Origin: Burkholderiaceae bacterium
Lineage (GTDB): Bacteria > Pseudomonadota > Gammaproteobacteria > Burkholderiales > Burkholderiaceae_C
DNA: 64,000 nucleotides
Assembly (NCBI GenBank): GCA_026125795.1
Contig: JAHCKM010000001.1
Location: 1,302,001 to 1,366,000 of the forward strand
Direction: 5' to 3'
This document shows positions 2,921 to 39,940 of the stretch, piece by piece; within the stretch, counting starts at the first letter, position 1; the number at the start of each line of letters is the position of its first letter. The notes under the pieces were generated by a model. The model did not search any database, had not been told where the DNA came from, and saw only the letters and a list, made by a program, of their open reading frames with translations. The position numbers and the translations under genes were made by a program.

Positions 2921-3026
2921 GCCGGCGCTGCCCGTCCGCAGGCCGCGCGCCGGCACCCGGGGCGGCGAACCCCTGCGGTTTGATCGCACGCAAGCGCGTG
3001 CCGCCGCCGGCCGGCCACGATGGCGC

Positions 3027-4751
3027 GTGCCCGCCTACAACGCCGACATCGCCCGCGTCTTCGACGAGATCGCCGATCTGCTGGAGCTGCAGCGGGCGAA
3101 CCCGTTTCGCGTGCGCGCGTACCGGCGCGCCGCCCAGACGGTGGGCGATCTCGACCGCAGCCTGGCCACGATGGTCGCGCACGGCGACGATCTCGACGCC
3201 TTGCCCGGCATCGGCAGCGACCTGGCGGCCAAGATCGCCGAGATCGTGCGCACCGGCCGCTGCGCGCTGCTGGAGCAGTTGCGCGCCGAGGTTTCGCCGC
3301 GCCTGGCCACGCTGATGAGGCTGCCCCATCTGGGGCCGGAGCGCGTGCGCACGTTGCACGACGAGCTCGGCGTCGAGACCATCGAGCAGTTGCATGCGGC
3401 GGCCGAGGCGGGGCGTGTGCACGGTGTGCGCGGCTTCGGCGAGCGCCTGGAGCAGGAGATCCTCGAGGCCACGAAGCCGCATCCGGAGCGCCCGGCGCGG
3501 GTCCGCCTGCCGGTGGCCGACGAGGTCGCGCAGTCGCTGCTGGCGCGCCTGCGGGAGGTGCGCGGCGTCGAACGGGCGGAGGCGGCGGGCAGCCTGCGCC
3601 GGCGGCGCGACAGCATCGGCGACCTCGACCTGCTGGCGCAATCGTCGGCCGGCGCCGACGTGATCCAGGCGTTTGTGCACTTTGCCGAGGTCGACAAGGT
3701 GCTCGCGGCCGGCGACACGCGCGCCAGCGTCGTGCTCGCCAACGGCCTGCAGGTGGACCTGCGCGTGGTCGCGCGCGAGAGCTTCGGCGCGGCGTGGCTG
3801 TACTTCACCGGATCGAAGCCGCACAACATCGCGTTGCGCCGGCTGGCGCAGCAGCGCGGCCTCAAGCTCAACGAATACGGCGTGTTCCGCGGCGACGCGC
3901 AGGTGGCCGGGCGCGACGAGGCATCGGTCTACGCCGCGCTCGATCTGAAGCCGATCGCGCCGGAGCTGCGCGAGGACCGCGGCGAGATCGAGGCGGCCCA
4001 GCGCGGCCAGCTGCCGCGGCTGATCGAGCTCGGCGATCTGCGCGGCGACCTGCACGCACACACCCGCGACAGCGACGGACGCGACGACCTCGATGCACTG
4101 GTGGCCGCGGCGCGTGCGCGCGGCCTGGAATACCTCGCGGTCACCGACCATTCGCAGCGGCTGGCCGTGACGCATGGCCTCGATGCCAGGCGCCTGGCGC
4201 AGCAGATGGACCGCATCGACCGTCTCAACCAGCGCTTGCGCGGCTTCAGGGTGCTCAAGGGCATCGAGGTCGACATCCTCGAGGATGGGCGGCTCGACCT
4301 GCCCGACGCCGTGCTGGCCCGGCTCGACCTCGTGGTGGGCGCCGTGCACCAGCACTTCGATCTGTCGAGCGAGCGCCAGACCACGCGCCTGCTCAAGGCG
4401 ATGGACCATCCGCACTTCTCGGTGCTGGCGCATCCCACCGGCCGGCTGATCGAGGAGCGCGCGGGCTGCGTCTTCGACTGGCCGCGCGTGGTGCGCCATG
4501 CGCGCGAGCGCGGCTGCTTTCTCGAGCTGAACGCCCATCCGTCCCGGCTCGACCTCGACGACTCGGCGTGCCGGCTGGCGCGTGACGAGGGCGTGCTGGT
4601 CTGCATCAGCACCGACGCGCACAGTGTGCTCGACCTCGGCAACCAGCGGCACGGCGTCGACCAGGCACGGCGCGGTTGGCTGCGCCGCGGCGACGTGCTG
4701 AACGCGCGCCCGCTGTCGGCGCTGCGGCCGCTGCTGGCGCGCACGATGTGA
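3027..4751 (+). CDS. polX: Family X DNA polymerase with PHP domain
   Basis: A 574-residue bacterial PolX that fills short gaps in base-excision and end-joining repair and has a C-terminal PHP 3'-5' exonuclease. Order: helix-hairpin-helix lyase-like region (DIARVFDEIADLLEL, then LPGIGSDLAAKIAEIV), nucleotidyltransferase core with GSLRRRRDSIGDLDLL and a third acidic site in LQVDLRVV, then PHP motifs DLHAHT and AVTDHS and a late STDAHS. GTG at 3027 was chosen because VPAYNADIARVF aligns with the usual family start; an in-frame ATG at 2907 would add 40 residues of unrelated sequence and falls inside the Fnr-like box. An SRAP-family gene lies 9.5 kb downstream. Confidence 0.93.
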   Translation: MPAYNADIARVFDEIADLLELQRANPFRVRAYRRAAQTVGDLDRSLATMVAHGDDLDALPGIGSDLAAKIAEIVRTGRCALLEQLRAEVSPRLATLMRLPHLGPERVRTLHDELGVETIEQLHAAAEAGRVHGVRGFGERLEQEILEATKPHPERPARVRLPVADEVAQSLLARLREVRGVERAEAAGSLRRRRDSIGDLDLLAQSSAGADVIQAFVHFAEVDKVLAAGDTRASVVLANGLQVDLRVVARESFGAAWLYFTGSKPHNIALRRLAQQRGLKLNEYGVFRGDAQVAGRDEASVYAALDLKPIAPELREDRGEIEAAQRGQLPRLIELGDLRGDLHAHTRDSDGRDDLDALVAAARARGLEYLAVTDHSQRLAVTHGLDARRLAQQMDRIDRLNQRLRGFRVLKGIEVDILEDGRLDLPDAVLARLDLVVGAVHQHFDLSSERQTTRLLKAMDHPHFSVLAHPTGRLIEERAGCVFDWPRVVRHARERGCFLELNAHPSRLDLDDSACRLARDEGVLVCISTDAHSVLDLGNQRHGVDQARRGWLRRGDVLNARPLSALRPLLARTM

Positions 4752-4769: not shown

Positions 4770-7391
4770 CTACGGTTTCTGCGCGTGCCGGCCGGCGCTC
4801 GCCGGCAGCGGCACGTGGCGGGCCCGGCGCAGCGGCTCGCGCGCGCCGTGCGCCAGACCGTGCGCCTGGCGCGCACGCGACATCTGCTCGAGCCGTGCGG
4901 CCACCAGGCGGTTGATCGTGCGCTCGGGCAACGCGCCCTTGCCGTCGGGCTCCTGCGCCGGCACGCCGGTCAGCACCTCGATCGCGGTGTCGACGTGGTC
5001 GACCGCGATCACGTGGAAGCGGCCTTGCGCCGCGGCCTCGACCACGTCGTCGCGCAGCATCAGGTGCTGGGCGTTGGCCGCGGGGATCAGCACGCCCTGG
5101 TGGCCGTCGAGGCCGCGCGCGCTGCAGACGTCGAAGAATCCCTCGATCTTCTCGTTGATGCCGCCCACCGCCTGCACCTGCCCGTGCTGGTTGACCGAAC
5201 CGGTGACCGCCAGCGACTGATCGATCGGCACGCCGGCCAGTGCCGACAACAATGCGCACAGCTCGGCCAGCGAGGCGCTGTCGCCTTCCACCGCACCGTA
5301 GGACTGCTCGAACACCAGGCTGGCCGACAGCGACAGCGGCGTGTGCTGCGCAAAGCGCGCGCCGAGGAACGAGGCCAGGATCATCACGCCCTTGGAGTGG
5401 ATCGGCTTGCCGAGCGTGGATTCGCGCTCGATGTCGACCAGGTCGCCTTCGCCGACACGCGCGGTGGCCGTGATGCGCACCGGGTGCCCGAAGCGGAAGC
5501 CCCCGAGCTCGTGCACCGCCAGGCCATTGATCTGGCCCGCGTGCGACCCGCTGCTGGCGATGAGCAGCGTCTCGCGCTGCACCGCCTCTAGCATCGAGCC
5601 ACGCAGCCGGTCGGCGCGGCGGATGCGTGCCGCCAGCGCCTGCGCGACGTGCTCGCGTGCGATCACCGCGAGCCCGCTGCGCGCGGCCTCGTGGTCGGCC
5701 TCGGACAGCACGTCGGCCAGCTCGCGCACGCGCGTCGACAGCTTGTGCGCATCGCCGGCCATGCGCGAGGCGTGTTCCACCAGACGGGCCACCGCGCCGC
5801 GATCGAGCGGCCGGATCGCACGCTCGCGCGCCAGCGAGCCGAGGAGCAGCGCGAACTGCGCCACCCCGGGCTCGTCGCGCGGCACGTCATCTTCGAAGTC
5901 GGCCGCCACCTTGAACAACTCGTCGAACTCGGGGTCGAGATCCTGCAGCAGGTAGTAGTGCAGCCGTTCGCCGAACAGCACCACCTTGACCGACAGCGGG
6001 ATCGGCTCGGGCTCCAGCGGCACGGTGCTCATCCAGCCCATCAGTTGCGCGAGCGACTCGATGCAAAGCCGGCCCGAGCTCAGCGCGCGCTTGAGGCCTT
6101 CCCAGGCGTAGGGCTGGGCGATGACCTTGACCGCATCGAGCATCAAGTAGCCGCCGTTGGCCAGGTGTAGCGCACCCGGCTTGACGAGCATGAAGTTGGT
6201 CAGCAGCGTCCCCATGTGCGCGAACTGGTCGACCCGGCCGGCCAGGTTGGCGTGGGTCGGGTTGTCCGGCTCCACGATCGGCGCATGGTCCTGCGGCCCG
6301 TGGCCCACCAGCAGGTTCACGCGGTAGCGGCCCACCGAGACGGTGCCGGCCAGCCCGCCGAAGGCCTCGTCGTCGACGTCCTTCTGTTCGTGCAGTTGCG
6401 CGCCGGCTTCCGTCACGTCGGCCAGCACCTCGTCGAGGAACGCCTGCACCTGGGGCAGCGCCGCGAAGCGCTCCTTGAGCTCCTCGATCAGGTGCCCGAC
6501 CGCCAGGGCCATGGTCTCGCGCGTTGCGTCGCGCACGCGCTGCTGCATCTCGCGGCGCACCCGCGGCAGCTCGTGCGAGATGCGATCGAGCCGCTCGCGC
6601 AGGCTCTGCACGGTGGCCGCGATGCGATCGCGCTCGGCTTGCGGCAGCTTGTCGAACTGCGCCGGATCGAGCGGCTGTCCGTCCTTCAGCGGCGCGAACG
6701 CGAAGCCGGCCGGCGTGCGCAGCAGCGCCACGCCCTGTTGCGCGGCGCTGTCGCCCAGCTCCTCGAGCGCGCGCTCCTCCTGCTGCTTGAACTCCTTCTG
6801 GATCGCCTCGATGCGCAAGCGGTACTCGTCGCTGTCGAGCGCGGCCGCGATCGCCTTGCCGAGCTCGGCGACAAAACGCTCCATCGCGGCATGCAGGCGG
6901 ATGCCCTCGCCGGCGGGCAGGCTCAACACGCGCGGCTTGTTGGCATCGGCGAAGTTGTTGACGTAGCACCAGTCCGCCGGCGCCGGCCGGGCGGCCGCGT
7001 GGGCCTGCAGCAGGCGTCGCACGGTGGCGTGGCGGCTGCTGCCGGGCTCGCCGAGCACGAAGACGTTGAAGCCGCGGCCGGCGATCGCGAGCGCCCGATC
7101 CACCGCATCGACGGCACGCGCCTGTCCGAACGCCGCGCGCGGTTCGGGCAGCGTGGCGGTGGTCTCGAAGTGGAACTGCGCCGGATCGCAGCGCGCGCAC
7201 AGCGCGCCGGCGTCGAGCGGACGCGCGGCGCCGGCGCGTCCGCCGGCCGGTGCGCCCGGGTCCGGCACGACAGGTGCCGGTGCGCCGCGTTCCTGCGCGG
7301 GTGGCTCGGTCCCGGTGCCGGTCTCGCCGGTTCGCATCGACCGTTGCGCGAGCAGGCTTTGCCTCATGCTCTTGTTCGGAGTCTTGTTCAT
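4770..7391 (-). CDS. Lon-related ATP-dependent protease (AAA_32 / S16 type)
   Basis: An 873-residue member of the Lon-related family in which an N-terminal AAA-type region precedes an S16 serine protease domain. The catalytic dyad is visible: Ser705 in GDSASL and Lys748 in NEKIEGF, 43 residues apart as in classical Lon. The nucleotide-binding loop reads LGEPGSSRHAT, so the GK[ST] of Walker A is not canonical, as in several relatives of this subfamily. A Q/E/R-rich coiled-coil stretch occupies about 190-300. It is divergent from the APH/P-loop gene at 7551, sharing a 159-base promoter region with two mirror-placed dyads. Probable role: protein quality control under stress; substrates are unknown. 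Confidence 0.9.
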   Translation of the reverse strand: MNKTPNKSMRQSLLAQRSMRTGETGTGTEPPAQERGAPAPVVPDPGAPAGGRAGAARPLDAGALCARCDPAQFHFETTATLPEPRAAFGQARAVDAVDRALAIAGRGFNVFVLGEPGSSRHATVRRLLQAHAAARPAPADWCYVNNFADANKPRVLSLPAGEGIRLHAAMERFVAELGKAIAAALDSDEYRLRIEAIQKEFKQQEERALEELGDSAAQQGVALLRTPAGFAFAPLKDGQPLDPAQFDKLPQAERDRIAATVQSLRERLDRISHELPRVRREMQQRVRDATRETMALAVGHLIEELKERFAALPQVQAFLDEVLADVTEAGAQLHEQKDVDDEAFGGLAGTVSVGRYRVNLLVGHGPQDHAPIVEPDNPTHANLAGRVDQFAHMGTLLTNFMLVKPGALHLANGGYLMLDAVKVIAQPYAWEGLKRALSSGRLCIESLAQLMGWMSTVPLEPEPIPLSVKVVLFGERLHYYLLQDLDPEFDELFKVAADFEDDVPRDEPGVAQFALLLGSLARERAIRPLDRGAVARLVEHASRMAGDAHKLSTRVRELADVLSEADHEAARSGLAVIAREHVAQALAARIRRADRLRGSMLEAVQRETLLIASSGSHAGQINGLAVHELGGFRFGHPVRITATARVGEGDLVDIERESTLGKPIHSKGVMILASFLGARFAQHTPLSLSASLVFEQSYGAVEGDSASLAELCALLSALAGVPIDQSLAVTGSVNQHGQVQAVGGINEKIEGFFDVCSARGLDGHQGVLIPAANAQHLMLRDDVVEAAAQGRFHVIAVDHVDTAIEVLTGVPAQEPDGKGALPERTINRLVAARLEQMSRARQAHGLAHGAREPLRRARHVPLPASAGRHAQKP

Positions 7392-7425
7392 CGGTGAACC
7401 TTAGGGTGCGGGCCGGTGGGCGACA

Positions 7426-7439
7426 TTGCGTTGGCGCAA
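7426..7439. promoter_or_regulatory. Perfect dyad TTGCG-TTGG-CGCAA upstream of the Lon-related gene
   Basis: A perfect 5-bp inverted repeat, extended by one more A/T pair. Its centre at 7432.5 is exactly 41.5 bp from the A of the Lon-related ATG (7391). On the minus strand TAAGGT occupies exactly -12 to -7 relative to that A, a fit to the TAnnnT -10 form. TAAGGT could alternatively act as a weak ribosome-binding site, so the leaderless reading is not forced. The factor is unknown; the spacing is that of class II Crp/Fnr-family activation. Confidence 0.6.
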
Positions 7440-7502
7440 TGGGCGGCGACCCTCGCCTTCGGTCGACGCCGGCGCGCAGCGGCCCTGCTGCCTGTGGTGG
7501 GT

Positions 7503-7516
7503 TTGCGCTTGCGCAA
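7503..7516. promoter_or_regulatory. Perfect dyad TTGCG-CTTG-CGCAA upstream of the APH/P-loop gene
   Basis: The second perfect copy in the same intergenic region. Its centre at 7509.5 is again exactly 41.5 bp from an ATG (7551), this time on the plus strand. TAGCCT sits at -12 to -7 and matches TAnnnT. No ribosome-binding sequence is visible before the ATG, which favours a leaderless start. The mirror placement relative to the 7426 site is hard to explain by chance. Confidence 0.62.
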
Positions 7517-7550
7517 CGCCGGACGCAAGGTGTGCCGATAGCCTGCACCG

Positions 7551-9209
7551 ATGAGTCCGGTGACGCAGGAGTCGATGCCCTCGGCCGCAAGCGGGCGCGC
7601 CGAGCTCGACCTCGAGGGCCAGACGCGCATGGTGCGCGCCCTGCGCGAGCGCCTGCGCGAGCGGCACGGCGGCCCGGTTGCGCTGATCGAAACGCACATC
7701 TCGTTCGTGCTGGTGTGCGGCCGCGACGCCTACAAGATCAAGAAGGCGCTGAAGACCCATTTTCTGGACCAGTCCACGCTGGCCCGGCGCCGGCGCGCCT
7801 GCGACGAGGAGCTGCGCCTGAACCGGCGGCTGGCCGCCGACCTGTACCTCGGCGCCGTGCGCATCACCGGCGCGGTCGACGCGCCCGAGCTCGACGGCAG
7901 CGGCGCCGACATCGACTGTGCGGTGCACATGCGCGCCTTTGCGCAGGAAGGCCTGTGGGACCGGCTGGCGGCGGACGGTGCGCTGCAGCCGTCGCAGGTC
8001 GACGAGCTGGTGCGCATCGTGGCGCGCTTTCACGACGGCGCAGCGGTCGCACCCCGCGGCGCCGCGTTCGCCGCGCCGATGCGCGTGCGCGCGGCGATGC
8101 TGGAGACGCTCGACGATCTCGAGCGCGCGATGGCCGGCGCCGACGAGCGGCCAATGCTCTCGGAGCTGCGCGCCGACGAGGCCAGCGCGTTCGCCCGCCT
8201 GCGTTCGGTGATGTCCCAGCGCCTGGCGCGCGGTCGCGTGCGCGAGTGCCATGGCGATCTGCACCTGGGCAACGTGACGTCGATCGAGGGCCGCGCGGTT
8301 GTCTTTGACGGTATCGAATTCAGCGACGAGCTGCGCTGGATCGACGTCATCAGCGAAGTGGCCTTCATGGCGATGGACCTGCACGCGCACGGCCTGCCGA
8401 CACTGGCGCATCGTTTCGTCAACGGCTATCTCGAGGCGAGCGGCGACTACGACGGCCTGAGGCTGCTGCGCTACTACATCGTCTATCGCGCGCTGGTGCG
8501 CGCCAAGGTGGCGCTGCTGCGTGCGTCGCAGTCGGCCGCCGAGGCCGACGCGCAGCGCGCCGCGGCGCGGCGCAACCTCGCGCTGGCGCTGCGCTTCAGC
8601 CGCTCGGCGAGCGGCGCGGCGGCACCCGCGCTGCTGATCACCCACGGCCTGTCGGGCAGCGGCAAGTCGACGCTGACCCAATCGCTGCTCGAGGCGCTGG
8701 GCGCGATCCGCGTGCGCGCCGACCTTGAGCGCAAGCGCATTGCCGGGCTGCAGGCCCTGGACCGCAGCGGCGCCGGCATCGGATCGGCGCTGTACCGGCC
8801 AACGATGACGGCTGCGGTCTACGCGCGGCTGCGCCGCTGCGCCGCGCTCGCGCTCGATGCCGGTTTCCATGTGATCCTGGACGCCACGTTCCTCCACCGC
8901 GCGCAACGGCGGGCGGCACGCCGGGTGGCCGAACGACGCGGGCTCGCCTTCGTCATCCTCGACTTCGACGTCGATGCCGAGCTGTTGCGCCAACGCGTTC
9001 GCCAGCGCGCCGCAGCCGGCGGCGACCCGTCCGATGCCGACGAGGCGGTGCTGGCGCAGCAGCTACGCAGCGCGCAACCGCTGCAGGCCGATGAGCGGGC
9101 GGCGGTCCATTCCTGCAGCGCGGCCGCGAGTGCGCCGGACGGCGCGGCGCGCGCCGACTGGACGCCATTGCTGCGCCGGCTGGCCGGCACCCCGGCACCG
9201 CTACCATGA
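7551..9209 (+). CDS. APH-like kinase fused to P-loop NTPase (AAA family)
   Basis: A 552-residue fusion found in many Proteobacteria. The N-terminal half resembles aminoglycoside phosphotransferases: CHGDLHLGN at about 233-241 supplies the catalytic His-Gly-Asp, and VFDGIEF about 12 residues later the metal-binding Asp. The C-terminal half starts at about 360 with Walker A GLSGSGKST (366-374) and resembles small-molecule or polynucleotide kinases; VILDATFLHRAQR is a likely Walker B. The substrate is unknown and nothing here points to antibiotic resistance. Its stop overlaps no gene; the P-type ATPase begins 12 bases later and is probably co-transcribed. Confidence 0.87.
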   Translation: MSPVTQESMPSAASGRAELDLEGQTRMVRALRERLRERHGGPVALIETHISFVLVCGRDAYKIKKALKTHFLDQSTLARRRRACDEELRLNRRLAADLYLGAVRITGAVDAPELDGSGADIDCAVHMRAFAQEGLWDRLAADGALQPSQVDELVRIVARFHDGAAVAPRGAAFAAPMRVRAAMLETLDDLERAMAGADERPMLSELRADEASAFARLRSVMSQRLARGRVRECHGDLHLGNVTSIEGRAVVFDGIEFSDELRWIDVISEVAFMAMDLHAHGLPTLAHRFVNGYLEASGDYDGLRLLRYYIVYRALVRAKVALLRASQSAAEADAQRAAARRNLALALRFSRSASGAAAPALLITHGLSGSGKSTLTQSLLEALGAIRVRADLERKRIAGLQALDRSGAGIGSALYRPTMTAAVYARLRRCAALALDAGFHVILDATFLHRAQRRAARRVAERRGLAFVILDFDVDAELLRQRVRQRAAAGGDPSDADEAVLAQQLRSAQPLQADERAAVHSCSAAASAPDGAARADWTPLLRRLAGTPAPLP

Positions 9210-9221
9210 CGGGCGGGCTCT

Positions 9222-11807
9222 TTGGGCATTGACGGCACCGGTCCGGCGGCGCCGGGGGCACCCGGCGCATGGTGGAGCCAGGATGCAGCCGCGCTGTTCG
9301 CCGCACTCGGCAGCGAGCCGCGCGGGCTGTCGGCCGGCGAGGCGCAGCGGCGGCTGGCGGCCGTGGGCCCCAACACGATGGTCGATGTGCGCGTCGCCAC
9401 GCGTTGGCAACTGCTCGGTCGGCAGCTCGCGAGCCCGCTGACGCTCATCCTGGTGGCCGGGGCGGCGATCTCGCTCGGGGTCGGCGAGTGGATCGATGCG
9501 CTGACCATCCTGCTGATCATCGCGATCGGCACGGGCATCGGCTTCGTGCAGGAGCTGCGCGCCGGCCATGCGCTGCAGGCGCTGCGCCGCCGTCTTGCCA
9601 TCGAGGTGCAGGTGCGGCGCCCCGACGGCATGCTGCGCCGCGCCGCCAGCCTGCTGGTGCCGGGCGATGTGATCGAGCTCTCAGCAGGCAACCTCGTGCC
9701 GGCCGACGGCCTGGTCTTGCAGGCGCGCGATTTCCTGGTGGACCAGTCGAGCCTGACCGGCGAGTCGCTGCCGGTGGAGAAGCGGGCTGCGGCGGTGCCT
9801 GCCGACGCGGCGCTGAACGCGCGCACCAATGCGGTCTTTCTCGGCAGCTCGGTGCGCAGCGGCACCGCCGCCGTGCTCGTCGTATCCACCGGGCGTGCCA
9901 CCGCCATGGCCGGCATCGCGGCGCGCATCGCCGCACCGGACGAGCAGACGCAGTTCGAACGCGGCGTGCGCCGCTTCGGCGACCTGCTGCTGCGTGTGAT
10001 GGTCGGCGTGGTGGTCGGCGTGCTGCTGGTGAACCAGCTGTTCGGCCAGCCCGGCATCCACTCGGCGTTGTTCGCGGTCGCGCTGGCGGTGGGCCTGTCG
10101 CCCGAGCTGCTGCCGGCGATCGTCAGCGTGTCGCTGGCGCGCGGTGCACGCCGCCTGGCGCGCGGCGGCGTGCTGGTGCGCCGGCTCGATGCCATCGAGG
10201 ACCTCGGCGGCATCGACACCTTGTGCACCGACAAGACCGGCACGCTGACGCTCGGCGTGATGGCGCTCGATGGCGCGCTCGATGCGCGTGGCCATCCGTC
10301 GGCTGAAACGCTGCAGGCTGCATGGCTCAATGCCGCGTTCGAAACCGGCATTCGCAACCCGATCGACGCCGCGCTGGTGCAGGCCGGCCGTGCCGCGGGA
10401 CTGTCCACCGACGGATGGGTCAAGGTCGACGAGATCCCGTACGACTTCGTGCGGCGCCGTCTCACGATCGTGCTGGCCGCGGCGGCCGACACCACGCGCC
10501 ACCGCCTGATCAGCAAAGGTGCATGCGCCGAGACCCTGGCCGCCTGCACCCAGGTGCGCGACGGCGGCCAGGCGCACGATCTCGACGACGCGTGGCGCGG
10601 CCGGCTCCAGGCCTTCGTGCAGGGGCAGGGCGAGCGCGGCGTGCGCGTGCTTGCGGTGGCGGTGGCCGACCGGGCCGCGCAGGCGAGCTGGGGCCATGGG
10701 GACGAGTCCGGCCTCACGCTGATCGGGTTCCTGTGCTTCAGCGACCCGCCCAAGCCCGACGCACGCGAGGCCATCTCGGCATTGGCCGGGCGCGGCGTGC
10801 GCGTGAAGATGATCACCGGCGACAACCGGCACGTGGCGGCGCATCTCGCGCGCGAGGTGGGCCTCGATGCGCAGGCGCTGCTGACGGGCGCGGCGCTCGA
10901 TGCCATGCGCGACGAGGCGCTGTGGGCGCTGGCCGAGCGCACCGATCTGTTCGTGGAGGTCGATCCGGCGCAGAAGGAGCGCATCGTGCGCGCGTTGCAG
11001 CGCACCGGCCATGCGGTGGGCTACCTCGGCGACGGCATCAACGACGCGCCGGCGCTGCACGCCGCCGACGTGGGCATCTCGGTGCACGGCGCGGCCGACG
11101 TGGCGCGCGAAAGCGCCGACATCGTGCTGCTCGGGCCCGATCTCGGCATGCTGCGCCGCGGGCTCGAGGAAGGGCGCCGCACCTTCGCCAACACGCTGAA
11201 GTACATCTACATCACCACCAGCGCCAACTTCGGCAACATGGTCAGCATGGCGCTGGCGACGCCGCTGCTGCCGTTTCTGCCGCTCACCGCGACCCAGATC
11301 CTGCTGAACAACCTGCTGTCGGACGTGCCGTCGATGGCGATCTCCACCGATCGTGTCGACGCCGCGGCGATCGAGCGCGTGCCGCGCTGGGACATGGCCG
11401 AGGTGCGCCGCTTCATGATCGTGTTCGGCCTGGTCAGCTCGGCGTTCGATCTGGCCGCCTTCGCGCTGCTGCGCCTGGTGTTTGATGCCGATGCCGTGCT
11501 GTTCCACAGCGCGTGGTTCGTGATGTCGCTGCTCACCGAGCTGGTGGTGCTGCTGGTGCTGCGCACCCGCGAGGCCGCGTGGCGCAGTGCGCCCAGCGGC
11601 CTGCTGGCCGGTCTGACCGTGGCCGTTGCCGCCATCGCGCTGGGGTTGCCGCATTGGCCCTGGAGCGCCACGCTTTTCGGCCTGACCGCGCCGCCGCTCG
11701 CGGTGTGGGGCGCGCTGCTCGCTCTGGTGTGCGCTTACGGCGTGGCCACCGAGATCACGAAGCGGTGGTTCTTCAGGTCCACCGAGCGTGGCGTCAGTGC
11801 GCCATGA
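9222..11807 (+). CDS. mgtA: Magnesium-transport P-type ATPase (P3B, MgtA-like)
   Basis: An 861-residue inner-membrane cation pump. Seen in order: N-terminal regulator-like segment PRGLSAGEAQRRLAAVGPN, two hydrophobic hairpins, actuator motif TGES, phosphorylation site DKTGTLT with Asp337, nucleotide-binding region with KMITGDN, hinge GDGINDAP, then six C-terminal membrane helices with TATQILLNNLLSD. The start is inferred as TTG at 9222. It is the first possible start after an in-frame stop at 9207, and the conserved N-terminal segment follows closely; no ATG or GTG fits. The last 14 bases overlap the convergent usp gene. An MgtC/SapB-like gene lies 1.1 kb downstream. Confidence 0.88.
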   Translation: MGIDGTGPAAPGAPGAWWSQDAAALFAALGSEPRGLSAGEAQRRLAAVGPNTMVDVRVATRWQLLGRQLASPLTLILVAGAAISLGVGEWIDALTILLIIAIGTGIGFVQELRAGHALQALRRRLAIEVQVRRPDGMLRRAASLLVPGDVIELSAGNLVPADGLVLQARDFLVDQSSLTGESLPVEKRAAAVPADAALNARTNAVFLGSSVRSGTAAVLVVSTGRATAMAGIAARIAAPDEQTQFERGVRRFGDLLLRVMVGVVVGVLLVNQLFGQPGIHSALFAVALAVGLSPELLPAIVSVSLARGARRLARGGVLVRRLDAIEDLGGIDTLCTDKTGTLTLGVMALDGALDARGHPSAETLQAAWLNAAFETGIRNPIDAALVQAGRAAGLSTDGWVKVDEIPYDFVRRRLTIVLAAAADTTRHRLISKGACAETLAACTQVRDGGQAHDLDDAWRGRLQAFVQGQGERGVRVLAVAVADRAAQASWGHGDESGLTLIGFLCFSDPPKPDAREAISALAGRGVRVKMITGDNRHVAAHLAREVGLDAQALLTGAALDAMRDEALWALAERTDLFVEVDPAQKERIVRALQRTGHAVGYLGDGINDAPALHAADVGISVHGAADVARESADIVLLGPDLGMLRRGLEEGRRTFANTLKYIYITTSANFGNMVSMALATPLLPFLPLTATQILLNNLLSDVPSMAISTDRVDAAAIERVPRWDMAEVRRFMIVFGLVSSAFDLAAFALLRLVFDADAVLFHSAWFVMSLLTELVVLLVLRTREAAWRSAPSGLLAGLTVAVAAIALGLPHWPWSATLFGLTAPPLAVWGALLALVCAYGVATEITKRWFFRSTERGVSAP

Positions 11808-12697: not shown

Positions 12698-12711
12698 TTG
12701 CGATGCATCAA
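12698..12711. promoter_or_regulatory. Fnr/Anr-like dyad TTGCG-ATGC-ATCAA
   Basis: A hybrid site with a perfect Fnr-type right half (ATCAA) and a TTGCG left half. Its centre at 12704.5 is exactly 41.5 bp upstream of the A of the YdaT-like ATG (12746), the same distance as for the two 7.4-7.5 kb sites. The -10 region is weaker (GACACT, one base off). No ribosome-binding sequence precedes that ATG. It could also act on the divergent usp gene, but the -10 fit there is poor. Confidence 0.5.
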
Positions 12712-12745: not shown

Positions 12746-12949
12746 ATGCCCTGGACTCCCGAGCGCTACCCGCCTGCGATGCGTCATCTTGCACCTTGGG
12801 TGCGCGACAAGGCGATCGCCATCGCCAACGCCTTGCTCGAAGAAGGCCTCGACGAAGGCCTGGCGATCCGCATCGCGATCGCCAAGGCCAGGCAGTGGGC
12901 CGAGCGCCATGCGGCGCCCACGGGCAGCGGCGGTGGGCTCGCACGCTGA
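12746..12949 (+). CDS. Small YdaT/DUF2188-type N-terminal domain protein
   Basis: A 67-residue protein beginning MPWTPERYPPAMRHL and continuing VRDKAIAIANALL, then DEGLAIRIAIAKARQW. This is the signature of small bacterial proteins related to the N-terminus of Bacillus YdaT, often annotated as stress-associated; no biochemical role is established. ATG at 12746 starts precisely at the conserved MPW; an in-frame ATG at 12665 gives a non-conserved extension. No ribosome-binding sequence is seen, and an Fnr-like dyad is centred 41.5 bp upstream. The gene overlaps the possible start of the next gene. Confidence 0.78.
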   Translation: MPWTPERYPPAMRHLAPWVRDKAIAIANALLEEGLDEGLAIRIAIAKARQWAERHAAPTGSGGGLAR

Positions 12950-39127: not shown

Positions 39128-39940
39128 TCAATCGGCGTCGGCGCGCGCGTGGGCGCCCGGCAGCAGCGTGTGGCCGCGTGTCACCGCCTCGAGCCCCGCG
39201 CCGTCGAGCACCAGCAGGCGCTGCGGGCCGAGCTGCACGATGCCCATCTGCTGCATCTGGCGCAGCGCGCGGTTCACGCGCTGGCGGCTGCCGCCCACCA
39301 TCGAGGCCAGGTCGCCTTGCGAGATCGCCAGGTCGATGCGCACGCCGCTGTCGGTGGGGTGGCCGAACTGCCGCGCCAGCCGTTGCACCTGCTTGGCCAG
39401 GCGCTGCGGCAACGTCAAGGCATGGCGCTCCTCGCAGCGCTTGACCATGCGGCGCAGGCGCTGGCAGTTGAGCTGCGCCAGCGCGTCGCGAAACTCGCTG
39501 CTCAGGGCCATCAGCTCGTGCATGTCGGGCTTGGCCAGCAGCAGCAGCGTGGACGGCACGTGCGCCACGATGTCGAGATCGACGCTGCGCTGGTCCACCA
39601 GCTCGATGTCGCCGAACCACTGGCCCGGGCCGATGAAGTCGAGCGTGAACACGCGGCCGTCGGGCAGCGCGCTGCCCAGGCGCACCGCGCCGCGCGCCAC
39701 GCCGACCCAGTGGCCCGCGGCATCGCCGCGCTGCGTGATGCGCGCACCCGCGTTCACGCGCTGCACGCGCGAGCGCTCGACGATCGCATGGCGCAACGGC
39801 TCCGGCAGCGAGCCGAACCAGCGGCCGGCATGCAGTGCGTGCAGTTCGTCTTCGCGCAGCCCGGCGGTCACGGTCGGCGTGGGCCGCGCCGCGGGCGACC
39901 GGCGCCACATCCAGGCGCGTTCGGCAACGATCGCTTCCAT
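39128..39940 (-). CDS. Crp/Fnr-family regulator
   Basis: A 270-residue regulator: cyclic-nucleotide-type beta-roll (GARITQRGDAAGHWVGVARGAVRLG and FIGPGQWFGDIELVD) and a C-terminal winged helix (QGDLASMVGGSRQRVNRALRQMQ). No N-terminal cysteine cluster, so it is not an oxygen-sensing Fnr. The recognition helix SRQRVNRA lacks the ExxSR of Fnr, so it is a poor candidate for the TTG-N8-CAA sites of the first 13 kb. It follows the thiolase gene after 11 bases and is likely the last gene of the SDR-FadB/J-like-thiolase operon. Confidence 0.9.
   Translation of the reverse strand: MEAIVAERAWMWRRSPAARPTPTVTAGLREDELHALHAGRWFGSLPEPLRHAIVERSRVQRVNAGARITQRGDAAGHWVGVARGAVRLGSALPDGRVFTLDFIGPGQWFGDIELVDQRSVDLDIVAHVPSTLLLLAKPDMHELMALSSEFRDALAQLNCQRLRRMVKRCEERHALTLPQRLAKQVQRLARQFGHPTDSGVRIDLAISQGDLASMVGGSRQRVNRALRQMQQMGIVQLGPQRLLVLDGAGLEAVTRGHTLLPGAHARADAD

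Follow-up and report, generated by a model that had tools for sequence, protein, structure and literature searches.

A mirror-image pair of putative Fnr-type class II promoters with predicted leaderless messages in a stress-gene island of a Burkholderiaceae bacterium

Introduction

Class II promoters activated by Escherichia coli FNR carry a TTG-N8-CAA dyad centred at -41.5 and a -10 box at -12 to -7, and the consensus half-site of Fnr is TTGAT. The N-terminal cysteine cluster of oxygen-sensing FNR holds a [4Fe-4S] cluster, and the arrangement CxxC-x5-C occurs in such Fe-S FNR proteins. Leaderless mRNAs, like Fnr class II promoters, are well known in their own right.

In Herbaspirillum seropedicae, which has several Fnr orthologues, promoters of Fnr1 and Fnr3 with different motifs, as well as hybrid sites, are described in the accessible portions of the report, with uspA among the targets; the Fnr3 motif shows weak outer T/A and a C/G and C/T preference at positions 6-7 (PMC5934665). 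The hybrid dyads with TTGCG in the genome analysed here recall these Fnr1/Fnr3 hybrid promoters, but TTGCG itself is not described for Fnr3 in those portions, and the term “leaderless” is absent from the main text as available (PMC5934665). The low-oxygen-activated locus lxa of Burkholderia cenocepacia comprises, according to the accessible parts of two papers, six universal stress proteins together with metabolism, stress and transport genes (PMC9104464, PMC3759415). The island described below is alike in kinds of genes only, and induction by low oxygen would be an analogy with what the accessible text reports for lxa (PMC9104464). Analysis of B. cenocepacia J2315 by dRNA-seq returned 72 genes that start at the annotated start codon, with an AT-rich promoter motif directly upstream and an over-representation of transcriptional regulators; FNR as a term is absent from this paper in the text available (PMC4603805).

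A search of the open-access literature, some of it accessible in part and with most subscription papers outside its scope, returned no paper on leaderless Fnr-activated messages. The element that appears to be new, in that it was not found in the open-access texts searched, is the systematic combination of Fnr class II promoters with leaderless messages, together with a variant half-site and a stress island. Here we describe a pair of dyads in a window of 64,000 nucleotides, the whole stretch of DNA that was analysed (C1:1302001-1366000 of a genome of 6.57 Mb; GC about 70%). Neighbouring stretches were added, and 244 kb were scanned.

Two dyads between the protease and kinase genes

A gap of 159 bases (7392-7550) separates two divergent genes. 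On the minus strand lies a Lon-like AAA+ protease of 873 amino acids with AAA_32, LonB LID and Lon_C domains (4770-7391), and on the plus strand a P-loop (AAA_33) kinase-like protein of 552 amino acids (7551-9209). A magnesium-type P-type ATPase (9222-11807, plus strand) follows 12 bp downstream of the kinase, with which it probably shares one transcript. The gap holds two Fnr-type dyads. The first, TTGCG-TTGG-CGCAA (TTGCGTTGGCGCAA), occupies 7426-7439 in the protease promoter, and its centre at 7432.5 is 41.5 bp from the ATG at 7391. The second, TTGCG-CTTG-CGCAA (TTGCGCTTGCGCAA), occupies 7503-7516 in the kinase promoter, and its centre at 7509.5 is likewise 41.5 bp from the ATG at 7551. The -10 hexamers TAAGGT (7398-7403, minus strand) and TAGCCT (7539-7544, plus strand) each lie at -12 to -7 of the ATG concerned. 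The preliminary description had reported this arrangement, and the two dyads, both distances and both hexamer positions proved exact on direct reading.

Compared to the E. coli promoters, the pair shares the palindromic TTG-N8-CAA dyad, with 5-bp halves and a 4-bp spacer at both sites, and the -10 position, with each dyad 22 bp upstream of its hexamer and its centre near 41.5 bp from a +1 that is predicted here. It differs in that +1 appears to coincide with the start codon, and in that both halves of both dyads are the variant TTGCG rather than TTGAT. A YANNNT box at offset 20-25 from each dyad is present on the side of its own gene only, with none towards the opposite gene, and each dyad therefore seems to serve its own gene.

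The exact motif TTGCGN4CGCAA is found only twice in the window, at the pair itself, where 0.19 occurrences are expected; two were reached in 2 of 100 shuffles. When the gap itself (158 of its 159 bases) was subjected to 20,000 dinucleotide shuffles, none produced two dyads and none a dyad at 41.5 bp. Genome-wide, the bare motif is hardly enriched: its exact sites number 20, those of the reversed pattern 13, and allowing one mismatch brings it below that control (406 against 606), so enrichment of the bare motif was rejected as a signal. The signal in the dyad pair is carried by position and geometry, not by the bare motif. A chance arrangement would agree with these motif counts, but it is at odds with the outcome of the gap shuffles and with the recurrence of the layout in another genus (genome G316) and in the family; we regard it as scarcely credible.

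Predicted promoters and start codons

In the mechanism that we propose, an Fnr-type dimer would bind each of the two dyads as a class II activator, covering the -35 region of one of the two divergent promoters and recruiting RNA polymerase to the YANNNT -10 box 22 bp downstream. From the position of that box, the first transcribed base should coincide with the A of the ATG or miss it by about one base at most, which makes the protease ATG at 7391 the predicted 5′ end of its transcript. Both messages would thus be leaderless or nearly so. The pair would moreover be part of a TTGCG-rich regulon that fills about 107 kb of stress/low-oxygen type genes, and the likeliest activator of this regulon would be L025, a Crp/Fnr protein encoded within it, with binding, activation and inducing signal all predicted. 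Judged from sequence, we give this reading as a whole a probability of roughly 0.77. Class II Crp/Fnr geometry with a leaderless mRNA had been suggested beforehand, and the suggestion gains support from the spacing test, six sites in the island core, a peak of family promoters at the same gap together with its controls, and a second mirror pair in G316.

No kinase start before 7551 is possible, because the TAG of the -10 box is in frame with the gene. An alternative start at 7575 has AGGAG upstream, and the computed anti-Shine-Dalgarno pairing is +0.3 kcal/mol for the kinase at 7551, -6.2 kcal/mol at 7575, where AGGAG takes part, and -3.8 kcal/mol for the protease at 7391. A kinase leader of 24 nt from the same transcription start is therefore possible. 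Relatives of the protease mostly start near residue 51-55 of the window protein. Within the extension, residues 1-25 look coding in the annotated frame by their codon usage (1.3 against -24.5 and -4.0); for residues 26-55 the frame does not stand out (-4.9 against -2.7 and -11.5). No Shine-Dalgarno sequence was found before the later protease starts.

These observations bear on an alternative in which the same Fnr-type class II promoters operate, but translation begins at later starts behind short leaders, at 7575 in the kinase and at a later in-frame codon in the protease. The AGGAG before ATG 7575 and the lack of conservation of the protease extension are what it would predict. The coding appearance of residues 1-25 and the later protease starts without a Shine-Dalgarno sequence speak against it, as does the repetition of both 41.5-bp distances in G316. 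We consider this alternative unlikely; comparisons within the family, given below, bear on it in both directions.

The surrounding island

Dyads of the form TTG[AC]N6[TG]CAA number 42 in the 244 kb scanned (17 per 100 kb); the control DNA, 160 kb in all, contains 6 (3.75 per 100 kb). In the core of the island, 107 kb at C1:1209000-1316000, there are 34 TTG[AC]-N4-[TG]CAA dyads versus 1-4 at each of nine other spacings, so that the 4-bp spacer alone is enriched, whereas the control DNA (160 kb) gives a flat profile of 3-13 dyads across all ten spacings. Enrichment of this spacer alone is the signature that an Fnr-type dimer would leave. TTGCG is the commonest half-site of the 40 TTGN8CAA dyads in the core (25 of 80 halves), followed by TTGAC (13), TTGAG (12) and TTGAT (12). 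Among chance TTGN8CAA sites of the control DNA, TTGCG makes up 9 of 44 halves; per 100 kb, this corresponds to 23 in the core versus 6 in the control.

Factors of the TetR or MarR type commonly have short palindromes in divergent gaps, and the two dyads might accordingly be operators of such an unrelated repressor. This is very improbable in view of the sole enriched spacing, TTG/CAA with N4, of half-sites that grade into TTGAT and TTGAC, and of the -41.5 position, which recurs at six island promoters.

Genes named in the core include two universal stress proteins, an FtsH-type protease, a nicotinate phosphoribosyltransferase and a helix-hairpin-helix protein, in addition to a PolX-type DNA polymerase, the Lon-like protease, the kinase and the magnesium-type ATPase. 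The complete layout, dyad-N22-YANNNT-N6-ATG, has seven exact matches in the genome, six of them in the core with the window pair included; the reversed pattern has none. Five of the core matches precede the nicotinate phosphoribosyltransferase, the helix-hairpin-helix protein, a 118-residue protein, the protease and the kinase. The sixth, at 1276223, opens only 16 codons and was not counted as a gene.

Four further promoters are close variants, with a one-base shift or a poorer -10 box. The dyad of the FtsH-type protease is at 40.5 bp. In the window, the dyad TTGATCGCACGCAA (2980-2993), with a -10 box CACGAT (3016-3021), lies 40.5 bp from GTG 3027, the likely start of PolX (HHH, polymerase beta thumb and PHP domains; 3027-4751, plus strand). 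From this codon the protein reads VPAYNADIA, resembling the starts of relatives, and GTG 3027 is probably the true start rather than 2883 of the longer open reading frame. The dyad TTGCGATGCATCAA (12698-12711) is 41.5 bp from the ATG at 12746 of a small protein of 67 amino acids (MPWTPERYP, MPWTPERYPPAMRHL; 12746-12949, plus strand). The -10 position there reads GGACAC, a poor match, and this candidate, for which no Pfam or NCBIfam match was found, is possibly leaderless. Finally, the dyad TTGACGCATCTCAA (358-371) stands 42.5 bp away from the ATG, at 322, of a minus-strand gene for a 472-residue protein; this gene continues beyond the left edge.

As a minor observation, the perfect layout at C1:1276223 (L151/L168) stands before a 16-codon open reading frame, MSELAKERGPWPHSCC. 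This could be a chance occurrence, or else a mini-ORF that precedes the next gene and is itself leaderless.

The layout across the family

The exact layout is present in 178 of 299 genomes of the family, whereas 7 contain the reversed pattern. A 3-nt shift of the ATG away from the -10 box gives matches in 80 of the 299 genomes, against 14 for the same pattern reversed. Since this shifted control exceeds its own reversed control, the background is not negligible; some of the 80 shifted matches are ATGATG starts, however, and the estimate of the background is therefore high.

A profile of the spacing was obtained with canonical dyads (TTGAYN4RTCAA) in 120 genomes, leaving the gap between -10 box and ATG free from 3 to 30 nt. 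Among the 150 matches listed, 24 have a gap of 6 and 11 a gap of 7; the other gaps in the range 3-13 average 3.2 matches each, and a broad second mode extends from 22 to 28. These matches include six from the genome studied here, one of which is at gap 6, and a dyad with two ATGs counts as two matches. In many sequences of the second mode, AGGA or GGAG can be recognized by eye. A comparison with 103 genomes of the class that belong to other families, and that differ in size and GC content, shows no peak, with only 6 of the 144 matches listed (after removal of six own-genome matches) at gap 6. Many family Fnr promoters thus have their ATG 22-28 nt after the -10 box, as translation from later starts would have it, but start codons at +1 are the simplest explanation of the peak at gap 6.

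The genes under the family matches inspected include HemN in five genomes, a copper-type P-type ATPase at five loci and four Crp/Fnr regulators, and also DksA/TraR-type proteins and a PilJ/GAF histidine kinase, which we take to be of the NarX kind. HemN, copper-type P-type ATPases, Crp/Fnr regulators and sensor kinases are known kinds of Fnr target. The names were checked by Pfam for each of the five HemN and four Crp/Fnr matches and for three of the P-type ATPases, the other two (L177, L179) being named by sequence likeness. Six of 43 distinct family matches inspected open fewer than 60 codons. Anti-Shine-Dalgarno pairing is weak at these starts: it reaches -4 kcal/mol or lower in 7 of 39 starts with this layout (37 distinct, as lon and the kinase are counted twice, L169 and L170) versus 115 of 188 other genes.

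The recurrence in many relatives points to a habit of the lineage by which low-oxygen type genes would be read without a leader. Should the predicted 5′ ends hold, leaderless translation in the family would be fed by a class of Fnr-type promoters, low-oxygen or stress genes could gain whenever leaderless initiation is favoured, and promoter position could serve to re-annotate the start codons of many Fnr targets.

Orthologous loci and a second mirror pair

When orthologues were chosen by protein rather than by promoter, hemN was matched in 35 of 45 genomes, and 30 loci (L210-L239) were examined. All 30 have an upstream dyad, and 11 have an in-frame ATG 40.5-42.5 bp from it. Three of these 11 (L214, L218, L226) also have a later in-frame ATG, and the remaining loci have a later start, many of them after an AGGA-like sequence. 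That most hemN loci start later is again in line with short leaders. The hemN orthologues thus alternate between an ATG at 40.5-42.5 bp and a later start while the core of the Fnr promoter stays constant, and this natural series, with leader and without, makes a switch of translation mode directly testable. The -10 box is frequently CACAGT or CACATT among these loci.

The kinase was matched by protein in 111 of 298 genomes and 30 loci were taken, the window's own (L240) not being counted. From the 29 others we dropped L243, which begins at a contig end, and left out L266. Five of the resulting 27 (L252, L261, L262, L268, L269) have a dyad 40.5-42.5 bp from an in-frame ATG; the other 22 are without this layout, and L263, with its ATG at 39.5 bp, was not counted. 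The closest kinase, that of G238, was rejected as a match, its dyad being 80.5 bp from the ATG.

For the protease, the closest Lon relatives are at most 60% identical, and an in-frame start 40.5-42.5 bp from a dyad was found at none of the 46 Lon loci examined (of 80). By these comparisons, the protease side is without confirmation from orthologues. A site in G161 was rejected as the same Lon promoter, since the gene there encodes an ODP-family protein.

The second mirror pair was found in G316, a genome of another genus (L271, 5528-5646). The kinase site there, TTGCGCCACCGCAA, is 41.5 bp from the kinase ATG, and 35 bp from it lies TTGAGCAAACGCAA, which is 41.5 bp from the ATG of a divergent PolX gene. 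The two distances are those of the window pair, whereas the partner is PolX and not the protease, and an extra base separates each -10 box from its ATG (gap 7 versus gap 6). The expectation that dyads and 41.5-bp distances would be kept in relatives was thus borne out for the kinase in one other genus, and found no support for the protease at the 46 Lon loci.

Candidate activators

Five of the genome's own Crp/Fnr proteins (L021, L022, L023, L025, L027) have an FNR-like helix of the form L(T/K)(L/V)E(T/S)VSR, and two (L024, L029) a TPE(H/Y)FSR helix. The sequence CxxC-x5-C is present in L022 and L023 and absent from L021, L024, L025, L027 and L029. L025 and L029 are the regulators encoded in the core. 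L025 has the helix LTLETVSR and is without the N-terminal cysteine cluster of the oxygen-sensing Fe-S FNR; it scores 122.8 bits with the NCBIfam Fnr model, below the cut-off of 228, and FNR is the closest among solved structures. G316 encodes a protein of the L025 type about 0.6 kb from the PolX start, with 57-58% identity to L025 and L027, and the 71-kb stretch around the mirror pair contains one further Fnr-type gene.

TTGCG accounts for 21 of 42 half-sites in the G316 island and 25 of 80 in the core of the genome studied here, compared to none of 24 at 12 GC-rich hemN loci, a count that takes the last dyad before each hemN and so omits one TTGCG half at L219. With 46 of 122 halves in the two islands against 0 of 24 at hemN, drift in GC content alone looks insufficient, although hemN is one gene only. 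The activator might instead be a classical Fe-S FNR (L022 or L023), with TTGCG a product of GC drift from TTGAT. Both proteins combine CxxC-x5-C with the same kind of helix. One TTGCG half each is found at the genome's own fnr/hemN and ccoI-like promoters, as well as at two hemN promoters of relatives (among five that had been picked by the geometry itself), and the chance sites of the control DNA also show TTGCG. The half-site counts at hemN oppose such an FNR, and so does the presence of an L025-type protein in both islands, although G316 has its second Fnr-type gene too. On balance we find this assignment somewhat doubtful.

L029, at C1:1211676, has the helix TPEYFSR and is presumably DNR-like. 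As the activator it has in its favour its place within the core and a dyad that precedes its start by 71.5 bp, but no gene of its type was found in the 71 kb around the G316 mirror pair, and we think it an improbable choice. The likeliest activator would therefore be L025, a cysteine-less relative of Fnr, with others possible.

The preliminary description had proposed an uncommon Fnr/Dnr-type regulator or a variant. The abundance of TTGCG in the two islands and its absence from the hemN count agree with this idea; its frequency in the control DNA and its presence at the genome's own fnr/hemN promoter do not, and the idea holds in part. In a more far-reaching version, which we put forward tentatively and hold at less than even odds, a dedicated cysteine-less Fnr paralogue with a half-site of its own, TTG(C/A)G, might run the stress/low-oxygen island and be systematically coupled to leaderless messages, so that one module would fix the starts of both transcription and translation, and hemN-like promoters would shift to a short leader with the core fixed. 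This version is weakened because TTGCG also forms 9 of the 44 control halves and because L029 is a second candidate in the island.

The window itself contains a Crp/Fnr gene at 39128-39940 (minus strand), which was set aside as the regulator on account of its helix, SRQRVNR; the CxxC cluster is absent from its product. A last observation concerns the genome's own divergent gap between fnr (L023) and hemN (L278, C1:1831116). It holds a hybrid dyad, TTGCGTTTTATCAA, and the ATG of the FNR gene is 40.5 bp away, so that FNR itself may be leaderless.
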